Part shown: positions 32,572-54,650 of the stretch, piece by piece | How positions within the stretch are numbered: position 1 is the stretch's first letter | How the letters are laid out: each line of letters opens with the position of its first letter | Origin: Lachnospiraceae bacterium | Lineage (GTDB): Bacteria > Bacillota > Clostridia > Lachnospirales > Lachnospiraceae | DNA length: 64,000 nt | Reading direction: 5' to 3' | Assembly (NCBI GenBank): GCA_017556805.1 | Contig: JAFYMC010000034.1 | Location: 175,954-239,953 of the forward strand | Position numbers and translations under genes: made by a program | Notes under the pieces: model-generated | Databases searched by the model: none | Seen by the model: the letters and a program-made list of their open reading frames with translations, nothing else | What the model was told of the DNA's origin: nothing

Positions 32572-33324
32572 TCAGCTGTTCTTGATGCGTTCTAAACGGT
32601 GAAGCTGCGGCTGCATAGTGAGCTCCGTCAGGTTCAGACCGTTTCGTGCGGTAAGGGCAAACAGTGCGTAGTCGGCCACTTCTTCCGGGGTAAGGGCGGC
32701 ATCGGTATCCTCCGATGCGCAGAAGGACGCGTTGCGGTACAAATCGGTCCGGGTCATATCAGGGGCCAGCACCGTCACACGGACGCCGTATTTGCGCACC
32801 TCTTCAAAAAGACTTTTGGCAAAGCTTGAAATGCCTGCTTTTGTGGCTCCGTAGGCGCAACCGTGTGTATTGTTGGTTTTTGCGGCGGTAACGGAGGAAA
32901 TATACAACAGGTGGCCGTGATTGGCCTTTAAGTCCCGCAGGAATAAATTTGTCAAAAGAAGCGGAGCGGTAAAGTTCACTGCGGAAAGCTCCGTAATTGC
33001 TTTCACGGACAATTCCTCGTGAGGACCGTAAAAGCCCACGCCGGCATTTAATATTAAAATATCCGGAGTGGTATGTGCCTTATGAAGGGTATGGGCCAAT
33101 TGCTCGATGTCCGAAGGCTTGCGCAGGTCACACACATGAAGGGTTACGGCAAAAAGCTGCTCCGGGGACAGTTGGGCAGTCAGCTCTGTCCATAGAGTAT
33201 CCTTTCTTTCTTCGGATTTTACGATGCCGTGTACATAACAGCCTTCTTTAAGGAGGGTATGTAATAAGCATTTTCCGATACCGGAGGAAACGCCGGTAAT
33301 GAGAGCGGTTTTATTGGTTAACAT
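32572..33324 (-). CDS. Short-chain dehydrogenase/reductase
   Basis: NAD(P)-dependent oxidoreductase of the classical SDR family, 250 residues, substrate unknown. ITGVSSGIGKCLL (about 9-21) is the TGxxxGxG cofactor loop; LNAGVGF (NAG motif) follows. The catalytic set is Ser in YISSVTAAK and YGATKAG (YxxxK). The start codon overlaps the end of the upstream nucleosidase/radical-SAM gene by 14 bp, a sign of translational coupling, so both may belong to one pathway. Confidence 0.9.
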   Translation of the reverse strand: MLTNKTALITGVSSGIGKCLLHTLLKEGCYVHGIVKSEERKDTLWTELTAQLSPEQLFAVTLHVCDLRKPSDIEQLAHTLHKAHTTPDILILNAGVGFYGPHEELSVKAITELSAVNFTAPLLLTNLFLRDLKANHGHLLYISSVTAAKTNNTHGCAYGATKAGISSFAKSLFEEVRKYGVRVTVLAPDMTRTDLYRNASFCASEDTDAALTPEEVADYALFALTARNGLNLTELTMQPQLHRLERIKNS

Positions 33325-35278
33325 GGGAGTCTCCTTCCACGGACTCCTCGGGAGTCCAGATAAATAATTTGTCGTCCGGGATATGATGACGGGCGAGCGC
33401 TTCCTTCACCGAAGTCAGCAGTTTGTCACAACGCTCCGTATCGTAATGGCATACGCCGTCGGTCAGGGTATACGGATAATGGGAAATGGCGCAGGACGGC
33501 TTTGCTTTTTTCAGTTGTTTTACGTAATCCTTTGAAAGACGGAATACACCGAGACTGATATCCGTGATTTCTTCGGTGGAAAGAACGGAAAAAGTCTCGT
33601 CTACAAGAGTAGTATATAATTCCGGGGCATTCGGTACATCTAACACCGGGTCAAAACACAGTCGTAGGGAGAAGCCTTTTTTCGCGGCTTCCTTTGCGGT
33701 GGTCAGCCGGGCCTTTAAGGACGGCGTGTAGTGCTCGTATCGCGTAATAATCTCCTGTGGAGAGAGGGTAAAGGCCATGACAATGTTTTTTGCTGCCGGT
33801 AATTCTTTAATAAACGGTAGCGCGGCACTCTTGGTCCGAAGTTCCAGACGGAGGTCCGGGTGGGTGAGTGCATACCGGCAAAAGGCTTCCGCATGAGGAA
33901 GCAGGCCACACAGTGCCGTTAGGTCCGAATCGTAGGAACAGCATAGGTAAACCGGATGTTTCTTGAGAAGACGGTCCAGTTCCGCAAAATAGTCCTCCAG
34001 ATTGACAAACACTACTATGGTGCCGCTGGGATACATGCCTTGTAAATAGCAGTAGTCGCAGTCGTACAGACAATTCATAATGCAGGAGGTGTACATAAAA
34101 TGTTCTTCCCCGAAGCTTTGGCAGACCGGAGCACCCGGATAAAAGAGGGTGCCGTGGTTCGCCGCTAAAATCAGTGCAGGCCCCGTTTCCTGGGCATGGA
34201 GATCTTGGCGGCTTCGGTTAAACACATCCTTATAATGGTCAATCGGAATTACGGCAGCGTTTTTGAAACGCTCGGTGAACTGTTTGGTTACGGTATGGGA
34301 AAGCACCTCCCGTTCCACATAAATATGCCGGAAGGGGCGGAGCAATTTTTTCTCGGGTTGTTGTGTACTCAGGAAAGAAGCAGAGTCCGGTTCCGGGGAG
34401 CTAACGTTTTGAGAGCCTGTCTGCTTCGGGTTCTTTACAAAGGCTTCCAAAGTCTCAAGCCGAGCCAGCGCTTCCCGTTTTTTATGAGGTGTGTCGGTAC
34501 GCTCAGGAAGTGCGGATAACAGTTCCCTCCGGGTCAGACCGACCGACAGAGCGTAAGTAATAAGCTCGGTTAATCTGCGTTCCATGGTCGTGGAAAAGGG
34601 CAGATCCGCCATAAATTCCTTGGTAAGGGAGAGAACGGAACCAGTACGTTCGTTGCGCCGAGTCAGCTGGCTGGTAAATTGTGTCTCCTGTCCGGATAAA
34701 AAGCCGAGGAGAGGGTTGAGATGAGGCTGTATCAATCCGACGACATCCTCCGGGGACGGAAAGGTTCCGTTACAAACATCCGACACGACCTTATAAAAGA
34801 AGCAATGGGACGGTTGTATACTGCGAAACAGGGCGGTGGCTACACCGTAGGCTTCCATGTCATACAGCAGAGGAAGATTGCCCTCCGGTTCGGATGGTGT
34901 CGATGGATTTTTCACCGGAACATCCGCGGTTATCAGGCGGGCTTCCGAAAACGGATGGGTATACAACTCCGGATAAAGTGCTTTGCCGGTGGTTAGCTCC
35001 GTAAGAGCGGCACAAAGATAGCCGTCACCGATGACGGTATCCCCGGAGCCGCCGCAGATGCCAAAATTACAAAAGACATCCCCAGCGGAAACTTCGTACC
35101 GGGTCAGGTAGGCGGTGACCGCCATGGCGGCAGAAAGCTTTCCTGGTCCGGTGATTAAAAGCCGCAGGGTATTGTCTTCGGTTTCATAGAGAGGAAACGT
35201 AAAGTCCATCTTTTTCATCGGAAACGCGGACAGGACGGCCTTTGCTTCCGGCATAATTGCGGTGATGAATAATATCAT
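33311..35278 (-). CDS. Fusion of a nucleosidase/phosphorylase domain with a spore-photoproduct-lyase-like radical SAM domain
   Basis: 655-residue two-part protein, counted from ATG 35278, which follows AGGAG; a longer start is unsupported. Part 1 (about 1-200) resembles MTA/SAH nucleosidases of the PNP/UDP phosphorylase fold: FITAIMPEAKAV (acid Glu11), CNFGICGG, DMEAYGVAT (Glu142) and VVSDVCNG (Asp167). A linker of about 120 residues follows. Part 2 (about 315-650) resembles spore photoproduct lyase: CLYDCDYCYLQG carries CxxxCxxC at Cys403, Cys407 and Cys410, and CCSYDSD (446-452) matches the region of the H-donating Cys141 of the Bacillus enzyme. SPL repairs UV spore photoproduct; the substrate here is not proven. 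The nucleosidase could remove 5'-deoxyadenosine. Coupled to an SDR gene. Confidence 0.8.
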   Translation of the reverse strand: MILFITAIMPEAKAVLSAFPMKKMDFTFPLYETEDNTLRLLITGPGKLSAAMAVTAYLTRYEVSAGDVFCNFGICGGSGDTVIGDGYLCAALTELTTGKALYPELYTHPFSEARLITADVPVKNPSTPSEPEGNLPLLYDMEAYGVATALFRSIQPSHCFFYKVVSDVCNGTFPSPEDVVGLIQPHLNPLLGFLSGQETQFTSQLTRRNERTGSVLSLTKEFMADLPFSTTMERRLTELITYALSVGLTRRELLSALPERTDTPHKKREALARLETLEAFVKNPKQTGSQNVSSPEPDSASFLSTQQPEKKLLRPFRHIYVEREVLSHTVTKQFTERFKNAAVIPIDHYKDVFNRSRQDLHAQETGPALILAANHGTLFYPGAPVCQSFGEEHFMYTSCIMNCLYDCDYCYLQGMYPSGTIVVFVNLEDYFAELDRLLKKHPVYLCCSYDSDLTALCGLLPHAEAFCRYALTHPDLRLELRTKSAALPFIKELPAAKNIVMAFTLSPQEIITRYEHYTPSLKARLTTAKEAAKKGFSLRLCFDPVLDVPNAPELYTTLVDETFSVLSTEEITDISLGVFRLSKDYVKQLKKAKPSCAISHYPYTLTDGVCHYDTERCDKLLTSVKEALARHHIPDDKLFIWTPEESVEGDSHVNQ

Positions 35279-54597: not shown

Positions 54598-54650
54598 GAG
54601 GTTTTAGAAAAATGTTCGGATAATATAGATTGAAAAAACATAAAAAGAAC

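Follow-up and report, generated by a model that had tools for sequence, protein, structure and literature searches.

The window, by which we mean the whole 64,000-nucleotide stretch of DNA that was analysed, carries on its minus strand a single open frame that runs from an ATG at 35278 to a stop at 33311 and encodes a protein of 655 amino acids. Profile matches place an MTAN-type nucleosidase domain, which we call N, at residues 1-211 (34646..35278, minus strand, as are all features given here). It is followed by H (residues 212-285; 34424..34645), a domain of about 75 residues that we judged to be helical from its sequence, by a variable linker (residues 286-314; 34337..34423) that has zero invariant columns between residues 278 and 315 among seven fused relatives, and by R, a radical SAM domain of the spore photoproduct lyase (SPL) family (residues 315-655 and the stop codon; 33311..34336). 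A gene for a classical SDR, D (32572..33324), has a 14-nt overlap with the fusion gene. A sequence-only reading of this DNA had proposed both the nucleosidase-SPL fusion and the overlapping SDR gene, and both are borne out: near-full-length matches to the fusion protein were found in 7/7 related contig loci, with the frame open in six and broken in one (L008). Within the window's genus, 9/10 genomes match the fusion protein. Internal stops were counted in three of the nine matches, but two of these (L006 and L016) are actually open over 648-652 aa, leaving one broken.

Distribution of N, R and D

Across 299 genomes of the family, R was found in 48 and N in 39, using N and D profiles built from R-linked copies, and all 39 N genomes are among the 48 (Fisher 1e-40). 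By coordinates, all 39 N copies adjoin R or are fused to it, and this strict co-occurrence fits a nucleosidase that serves the radical enzyme. N and R are mostly separate neighbouring genes, and the survey of other genomes that the sequence-only reading had called for finds that the fusion recurs, with 17/91 rows fused, eight of them from the window genus. These correspond to nine changes on a tree that excludes the broken L008, at least two of the changes being forced by starred branches; one locus counted as fused (L136) ends at a contig end, and 37 loci (L132-L168) are a selection among the genomes found.

For further comparisons, we used 47 R-positive genomes, namely 42 of the 48 (six under 90 percent complete were left out) plus five more of the window genus, with three genomes of the window genus, that of the window among them, kept although they are less than 90 percent complete. 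The 33 R-negative genomes are those that search listings happened to name, with G494 left out. These co-occurrence statistics ignore kinship: 7/47 R-positive genomes belong to the window genus, and three genera recur among the 33 R-negative ones. D is present in 34/47 R-positive genomes, being absent from 13, and in 0/33 R-negative genomes (Fisher 5e-12). D lies immediately downstream of R in 45/92 loci, matches PF00106 at 2.8e-38 in the window's copy, keeps the catalytic residues Ser144, Tyr158 and Lys162 in 45/45 copies, and has carbonyl-reductase type SDRs as its nearest solved relatives. D is a true third member of the module and a conserved partner in it.

Three of the 34 D-bearing genomes have a D that is unlinked to R. 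One of these copies is fused to RNase H, one precedes an RNase HII gene by 2 nt, and one follows an SbcC/SbcD-like pair at a distance of 1 nt, three cases that we noticed after the fact. The RNase H half of the fusion also stands alone in other genomes. Single-sequence queries of the 92 loci did not find RNase H, RNase HII or SbcCD near R.

An ordinary MTAN above the family cut-off is found in 40/47 R-positive and 28/33 R-negative genomes. We therefore rejected the idea that N stands in for the ordinary enzyme, since there is no association between the two. With an ordinary MTAN present in 40/47 R-positive genomes, bulk 5'-deoxyadenosine also does not call for a clearing enzyme of its own.

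The surroundings of the module were searched for recurring genes and control elements. In a set of 55 loci, the most frequent gene cluster outside the genus, once N, R and D are set aside, is that of ABC ATPases, found in 14 loci at scattered distances and on scattered strands. One ABC ATPase gene, ABC-F-like by reading, lies directly before the module in L062, L063 and L082. Immediate same-strand neighbours numbered 61 from 76 loci, and 57 were scanned (one D copy, two coiled-coil frames and one frame overlapping R were left out); the best 25 of 130 families have at most three members each. An Rfam scan of the window stretch and 40 relative loci returned only two tRNAs and one pan motif (in L121), with no preQ1 riboswitch, and no LexA box was found near the module, the one match being at 54647 against 1.16 expected. 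On these scans we rejected riboswitch or LexA control. A phage or defence system was likewise rejected, given that PHROGs and PADLOC gave no match and that no relative was confirmed in viral contigs.

These surveys bear on a nucleoside salvage route in which N would free a modified base, R would cleave or rebuild that base, and D would reduce a side product, with queuosine as one candidate. QueK and QueL are a nucleosidase and a radical enzyme that work as a pair in gut clostridia, QueK belonging to IPR023186 (PMC11130926, PMC10723273), and the module described here shares this kind of enzyme pair and this kind of host. That N is dispensable in some lineages would fit uptake of the free base, and TGT is present in 47/47 R-positive genomes. 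However, TGT is equally common without R (32/33), the only riboswitch-like match in the 41 scanned stretches is the pan motif in L121, N falls outside IPR023186 (it is of the PNP_UDP_1/MTAN type), and QueL is not among the matches of the R profile in the PDB copy searched, where it finds SPL alone below E 0.1. We consider this route improbable.

The nucleosidase domain and H

The N part of the window protein has no match in Pfam, and its matches to a futalosine hydrolase model (7e-7) and a nucleosidase model (5.5e-4) are both under the cut-off. Among 25 aligned N parts, PNP_UDP_1 matches 16. The futalosine hydrolase model TIGR03664 matches 22 of the 25 below its cut-off, a general nucleosidase model matches 18, and MTAN models match 7, 5, 2 and 1, all of these being weak matches. 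The window N scores 31.8 bits against TIGR03664, whose curated cut-off is 124.7, and has no listed match to TIGR01704 (MTAN; cut-off 73.8 bits), which matches 2/25 N parts at E <=0.01, the best at 2e-4. When the N family profile was compared with the PDB, solved MTA/SAH nucleosidases came out on top (3eei at 3.5e-11), with CT263, which we take to be a futalosine-hydrolase-like protein, at 2.2e-6. Of the two parts of the protein that the sequence-only reading had proposed to search separately, the first falls in the phosphorylase/MTAN family and the second in the SPL family, the latter below the cut-off of TIGR04070.

The catalytic residues of MTAN are Glu12, Glu174 and Asp197 in E. coli numbering. 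Glu11 of the window protein (codon 35246..35248) aligns with the MTAN Glu and is the counterpart of Glu12, and we take Glu142 (34853..34855) to be the ribose-binding Glu and Asp167 (34778..34780) to be the general acid. All three had been picked out beforehand as kept, and they are invariant in 25/25 aligned N parts. In 72 intact N, from which nine decayed or cut rows had been removed before the residues were counted, Glu11 and Glu142 are each present in 71 and Asp167 in all 72, a pattern that requires selection for catalysis. N has the sequence of an MTAN-type nucleosidase in which the catalytic residues are kept, and it is predicted to be catalytically active. It resembles both MTAN (TIGR01704) and futalosine hydrolase (TIGR03664) in its catalytic Glu, Glu and Asp and in its overall fold by alignment, and differs from both in scoring far under the curated cut-offs, in having the extra H domain and in a shortened middle. 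The segment that separates the two aligned halves is shorter in N than in MTAN by about 26 residues, so the 5' pocket of N may not suit 5'-deoxyadenosine.

The alignment of H spans 13 proteins, of which no Pfam family matches more than one, and a PDB search with H gave a designed binder as its sole match. The nucleosidase half has decayed in 7/91 loci, with at least one of Glu11, Glu142 and Asp167 missing or unalignable in each of the seven. H is nevertheless recognisable by HMM in six of these seven, and a YPD/YPE motif is present in five of the seven (proteins read by eye). In L088 the nucleosidase half is gone entirely and H stands alone in an 84-aa frame, and L083, counted as fused, has neither alignable catalytic residues nor H. 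By eye only, the N-terminus of R in L082 resembles H. No N was detected in 11/91 loci, at least one of which (L078) is at a contig end, and one clade (L163, L165-L167) has R without any N; R keeps its motifs in loci with decayed or absent N, and D persists despite a decayed N in L073, L074 and L087.

The seven loci with a decayed nucleosidase, six of which keep H, suggest that N also has a non-catalytic role, and they indicate that clearing of 5'-deoxyadenosine cannot be the only job of N everywhere. One could go further and suppose that N serves R chiefly as a subunit for structure or substrate delivery, with H and the YPD loop binding R or its substrate and nucleosidase activity being secondary. 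The retention of H and YPD/YPE where catalytic residues are lost would agree with this, as would L088 and, by eye only, L082. The near-invariance of the catalytic residues in intact N and the clade with R but no N speak against it, and we regard such a main role as quite unlikely.

The radical SAM domain and spore photoproduct lyase

SPL itself is a DNA repair enzyme and a textbook radical SAM repair enzyme; we know of no assigned role for SPL relatives outside spores. R matches the Pfam SPL family PF20903 at 41 bits against a cut-off of 27 (residues 402-579), and hhalign of R against the SPL set gives a probability of 99.85. The window protein scores 59.6 bits against TIGR04070 and three relatives score 58-81 bits, so that the cut-off of 400 is not reached, whereas L100-L102 are SPLs that pass it. 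On a tree, R forms a clade apart from other SPL-family proteins. The CxxxCxYC cluster motif with Cys403, Cys407 and Cys410 (34049..34072), which the sequence-only reading had pointed to, is kept in 92/92 R. Profile, tree and motif together show R to be a clade of its own within the SPL family, the predicted cluster site being intact.

Tyr409 is present in 92/92 R and residue 411 is Tyr in 82/92 and Phe in 10/92, the window protein having both tyrosines, which we take to be relay tyrosines 97 and 99 of SPL. In B. subtilis SPL, the Y99F variant uses SAM 1:1 (PMC3742179). The Phe at this relay position in 10/92 R therefore makes SAM consumption likelier, with the window protein having Tyr there, and the presence of both relay tyrosines in most R, the window protein included, means that SAM regeneration would be allowed.

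It had also been suggested that a Cys at 446 or 447 occupies the place of the SPL H-atom donor, and this part of the sequence-only reading does not hold. Position 446 is Cys in 74/92 R and position 447 in 10/92, but the Bacillus/Geobacillus donor C141/C140 aligns with Tyr449 (33932..33934; Tyr in 86/92 R, Phe in 6/92) by phmmer and also by hhalign, the latter via SPLs with Ala there. A better candidate for the donor is Cys386 (34121..34123), present in 92/92 R, which hhalign matches, leaving a gap to either side, to a clostridial-type SPL Cys, that of 'TCKP' in three TIGR04070-passing SPLs, and which MAFFT places in an insert. Cys386 also aligns with a Cys present in chain 4rh0, and the H-donor in SPL of the C. 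acetobutylicum type is Cys74.

Could R simply be a spore photoproduct lyase that carries an accessory domain? The PF20903 match, the cluster motif with Tyr409 and Tyr411 and the hhalign placement of Cys386 at the clostridial donor place are as this would have it, and the window genome, at 86 percent completeness, encodes SASPs, while a search of it at E 1 finds no further SPL. Against this, window places 539, 543, 577 and 579 are fixed as Gly, Ala, Glu and Ile in 18 comparators, and the 92 R have Arg at 539, Asp or Glu at 543, Gly at 577 and Phe (Leu in one) at 579. SASPs are found in 28/47 R-positive and 20/33 R-negative genomes (p = 1) and are missing in the same share of each (19/47 and 13/33), and four genomes carry R together with a separate SPL-like gene. 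Given the distance from the TIGR04070 cut-off, the separate clade, Tyr449 and the lack of a SASP link, we rejected this assignment; action of R on spore photoproduct is disfavoured by these comparisons, and the accessory-domain version is highly improbable.

A second SPL-like group in the same bacterial family (L091-L099, L103-L108) resembles R in being related to SPL and under the TIGR04070 cut-off, and differs in lying apart on the tree and in having Ser at the donor column in 15/15. No N match was found within the short stretches fetched for this group.

A proposed pathway and its relation to known systems

We propose a single metabolic module made up of N, R and D, in which R would consume SAM at least partly, N would clear 5'-deoxyadenosine and D would reduce a carbonyl, a reading to which we give a probability of roughly 40 percent; all of the chemistry is what we infer for the module. 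R would cleave SAM, and the 5'-deoxyadenosyl radical would attack a nucleotide-like substrate other than spore photoproduct, after which Cys386 would return an H atom to the product radical, SAM being consumed in at least some members. H and the YPD loop would hold N on R, and N would hydrolyse 5'-deoxyadenosine beside the radical site, which would pull the reaction forward and relieve product inhibition, and D would use NAD(P)H to reduce a carbonyl that this pathway produces or requires. 5'-Deoxyadenosine inhibits radical SAM enzymes (PMC8102628). The sequence-only reading had likewise suggested a self-clearing or SAM-consuming enzyme: the strict occurrence of N with R and Phe411 in 10/92 R speak for it, and the ordinary MTAN in 40/47 genomes and the seven decayed N speak against simple self-clearing.

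As to the class of substrate, we think damage to nucleic acids or nucleotides the likelier one. The unlinked D copies beside RNase H, RNase HII and SbcCD, together with the fact that SPL repairs DNA, hint at a nucleic-acid target. More tentatively, we suggest that an SPL descendant with its own nucleosidase and reductase may act on a lesion or modification of nucleic acid or nucleotides in clostridia, sporulating or not, with adenine stripped off either 5'-deoxyadenosine itself or a product that has been 5'-deoxyadenosylated, and with N and H doubling as a scaffold for R that is able to lose catalysis. Among the matches listed, the open-licence PMC literature contains no description of a nucleosidase-SPL fusion or of such a three-part pathway.

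A rather unlikely alternative is that R attaches the 5'-deoxyadenosyl radical to its substrate at a C=C bond and Cys386 then quenches the product radical, after which N removes adenine from the adduct and D reduces the freed sugar aldehyde. MqnE and MqnB in menaquinone synthesis follow the same logic of adenosylation and then depurination. So does the formation of hopanoid side chains, in which diploptene receives the adenosyl radical from HpnH and HpnG subsequently takes off the adenine (PMC12583986); among the titles cited in that paper is one on a later reduction to bacteriohopanetetrol. An adenosylating R would suit the more frequent matches of N to TIGR03664 and the general nucleosidase model than to MTAN models, the retention of N alongside an ordinary MTAN, the shorter 5' segment of N, which suggests a different 5' substituent, and the carbonyl-reductase affinity of D. 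However, the PDB profile ranks MTANs ahead of CT263, SPL works by H abstraction, without adding adenosyl, no recurring lipid or biosynthetic gene lies beside the module among the families listed, and D stays in the three loci with decayed N noted above, so the product of N would not be needed there unless an ordinary MTAN supplied it.

In the module as we propose it, strict co-occurrence and repeated fusion link an SPL relative with a nucleosidase dedicated to it and with a reductase. This small system bears on how radical SAM enzymes handle 5'-deoxyadenosine and on roles of the SPL family without spore photoproduct. Compared with SPL (TIGR04070, PF20903; PDB 4FHC/4FHD, 4RH0), R shares the fold family by profile, CxxxCxYC with its two tyrosines, Lys483, Glu515, Arg524 and Asp452, and hhalign puts a Cys of R at the clostridial donor place. 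Unlike SPL, R has Tyr449 in place of Cys140/141, N and D as partners and no SASP tie, and its invariant Glu479, Arg481, Arg539, Gly577 and Arg580 are absent from the 18 comparators. In contrast to HpnH/HpnG and MqnE/MqnB, the radical enzyme here belongs to the SPL family, and no lipid or menaquinone gene recurs alongside among the families listed; the HpnG model (TIGR03468) matches only 1/25 N parts, at 0.0034. The N-R module nevertheless resembles HpnH/HpnG, and likewise MqnE with MqnB/MTAN, in combining a radical SAM enzyme with a purine nucleosidase, and the window protein is a natural radical SAM enzyme with the nucleosidase on the same chain.

The fusion gene and its distribution

The fusion gene is a single open frame of 655 amino acids on the minus strand, with its ATG at 35278 and its stop at 33311, and its relatives match over nearly the full length, confirming the sequence-only reading that a nucleosidase part is joined to a spore photoproduct lyase (SPL)-like part in one frame. 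The radical SAM domain R (residues 315-655) carries a Pfam SPL match over the cut-off at residues 402-579. The first half, domain N (residues 1-211), is too diverged to give a Pfam match, and its weak NCBIfam matches to futalosine hydrolase and nucleosidase are firmed by a search of the N family profile against the PDB, which matched solved MTA/SAH nucleosidases (MTANs) at 3.5e-11. Glu11, Glu142 and Asp167, which had been read as MTAN positions, do align with the MTAN catalytic residues and are invariant in 25 of 25 aligned N parts. Domain H (residues 212-285), between N and R, is helical by the look of its sequence and matched no known family in Pfam and PDB profile searches. The SDR gene, D (32572-33324), overlaps the end of the fusion gene by 14 nt.

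Near full-length matches to the fusion were found in 7/7 relatives from genome contigs (65-81 percent identity), with the frame open in six of them and broken by in-frame stops in the close relative L008 (L008:6001-7923). The fusion was also matched in 9/10 genomes of the window's genus. It is not an artefact; it is real and conserved, and is part of a three-part system.

R is present in 48 of 299 genomes of the wider family, 14 further genomes having weak SPL-like matches only, and at E 1e-40 it is found in 44/392 genomes in a sample of the order and 24/398 in a sample of the phylum. Our working set comprised 92 R loci, nine from the window's genus. As the survey of this architecture in other genomes reveals, the fusion recurs and separate adjacent genes are commoner: N and R are usually separate in the wider family, N being mostly an overlapping or adjacent gene upstream of R. 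On a 91-locus tree, N is split in 56, fused in 17 (eight of the window's genus), decayed in seven and not found in 11. The fused rows require nine changes on the quick tree, at least two of them forced by well supported branches.

Linkage of N and D to R

Of the 299 family genomes, 39 have N, and the coordinates place it next to R or in fusion with it every time (Fisher 1e-40). A D profile at E 1e-60 detects D in 34/47 R-positive versus 0/33 R-negative genomes (5e-12). The N and D profiles derive from copies linked to R and would overlook a strongly diverged N or D elsewhere in a genome. The suspected SDR linkage extends to other genomes: D immediately follows R in 45 of the 92 loci, precedes it in one and is absent from 44, and two leave no room for it. 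D retains its catalytic Ser144, Tyr158 and Lys162 in 45/45. Outside the window's genus, no further gene family holds a fixed place beside the module (55 loci; 57/61 immediate neighbours). At three loci (L062, L063 and L082) the module is immediately preceded by a homologous gene for an ABC ATPase, which we read as ABC-F-like.

In three of the 34 D-bearing R-positive genomes, D is located elsewhere, unlinked to R, and all three copies sit with nucleic-acid enzymes. One shares a 400-aa frame with an RNase H domain (L169:6238-7437, genome G265), a fused form found only in G265 among 116 genomes searched around it; the N-R fusion of G265 is on a different contig. Another lies between genes for a ribosome-binding-type GTPase, RbgA-like by reading, and RNase HII (L170:5349-7762), 2 nt before the latter. 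The third sits 1 nt after a metallophosphoesterase (SbcD-like) and AAA_23 (SbcC-like) gene pair (L171:2467-6169). These neighbours, a pattern noticed after the fact, hint at a nucleic-acid target. Searches of the 92 loci with the L169-L171 proteins as queries revealed no RNase H, RNase HII or SbcC/SbcD-like gene in the vicinity of R.

Proposed roles of the three parts

We propose, with a probability of roughly 0.4 and with all of the chemistry inferred, that R would act as a radical SAM enzyme yielding an adenosine product, N as a dedicated nucleosidase acting on that product, and D as a reductase alongside them. Judged from its residues, N would hydrolyze a purine nucleoside. Since 40/47 R-positive genomes also have an ordinary MTAN, N is not the general MTAN. 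Relative to MTAN, N has a middle segment shortened by about 26 residues; the substrate may be 5'-deoxyadenosine or something larger. The strongest rival, which we consider unlikely, is adenosyl radical addition followed by depurination, as described for HpnH and HpnG (PMC12583986). The closest family of N differs by search, being futalosine hydrolase in NCBIfam (22/25, weak) versus MTAN by PDB profile. Salvage of a modified nucleoside, analogous to that of QueK and QueL (PMC11130926, PMC10723273), seems quite unlikely.

Decayed nucleosidase proteins adjoin R in L073, L074, L087, L088, L089, L133 and L141. H is still recognizable in six of these seven loci, with a YPD/YPE motif readable in five, and L088 retains H alone in an 84-aa frame. 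Given that H and YPD/YPE outlast nucleosidase decay, the N protein has a further function at R, which is probably binding. That N is mainly structural is quite unlikely, and would be compatible with the dedicated nucleosidase proposed here. Directly upstream of R in L163 and L165-L167, loci of about 36 percent GC without N, is a coiled-coil-like repeat protein of 160-214 aa.

Literature searches gave nothing on the fusion or the three-part system among the matches listed. The system is assembled from known families and poses a testable biochemical question.

Comparison of R with spore photoproduct lyase

Tyr411 of R corresponds to the relay tyrosine at position 99 in B. subtilis SPL and is replaced by Phe in 10/92 R. 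According to PMC3742179, SPL Y99F and C141A use about one SAM per repair, and each SAM supports about 1.5 repairs by the wild type when the substrate is a dinucleotide. The suggested SAM-consuming reaction is therefore likely for at least the 10 Phe411 members; the sequence of the remaining 82, among them that of the window, is silent on this.

The SPL-like assignment of R holds at the level of the Pfam family and fails for SPL itself: the window's R reaches 59.6 bits where the cut-off is 400, a threshold passed by three SPLs of the same bacterial family, and on a quick tree the split between R and 18 SPL-like comparators has support 100. SASP is required for spore photoproduct, and is no commoner with R (28/47 R-positive versus 20/33 R-negative genomes, p = 1). 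On its score, its donor place and the lack of linkage to SASP, we rejected R as an SPL. The same bacterial family has another SPL-like group (L091-L099, L103-L108), in which Ser occupies the donor Cys column; the 3/15 members tested score 217-243 bits, under the SPL cut-off.

Bacillus-type SPL has a donor Cys, whereas R has Tyr (86/92) or Phe (6/92) at the same place. Cys446/447, earlier taken for the H-donor place, is thus displaced from it; position 446 is Cys in 74/92 and 447 in 10/92. The candidate donor is instead Cys386, invariant in 92/92 R, which hhalign aligns, with gaps around it, to the TCKP Cys of the three SPLs that pass the cut-off. We infer that this may be the position of Cys74, the C. 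acetobutylicum SPL donor, on the opposite side of the pocket (PMC5368176); the assignment is helped by chain 4rh0, which carries Cys at a place where Ser is seen in the other Geobacillus chains shown. Finally, R-invariant Glu479, Arg481, Arg539, Gly577 and Arg580 stand where the comparators have other residues, so the substrate probably differs.
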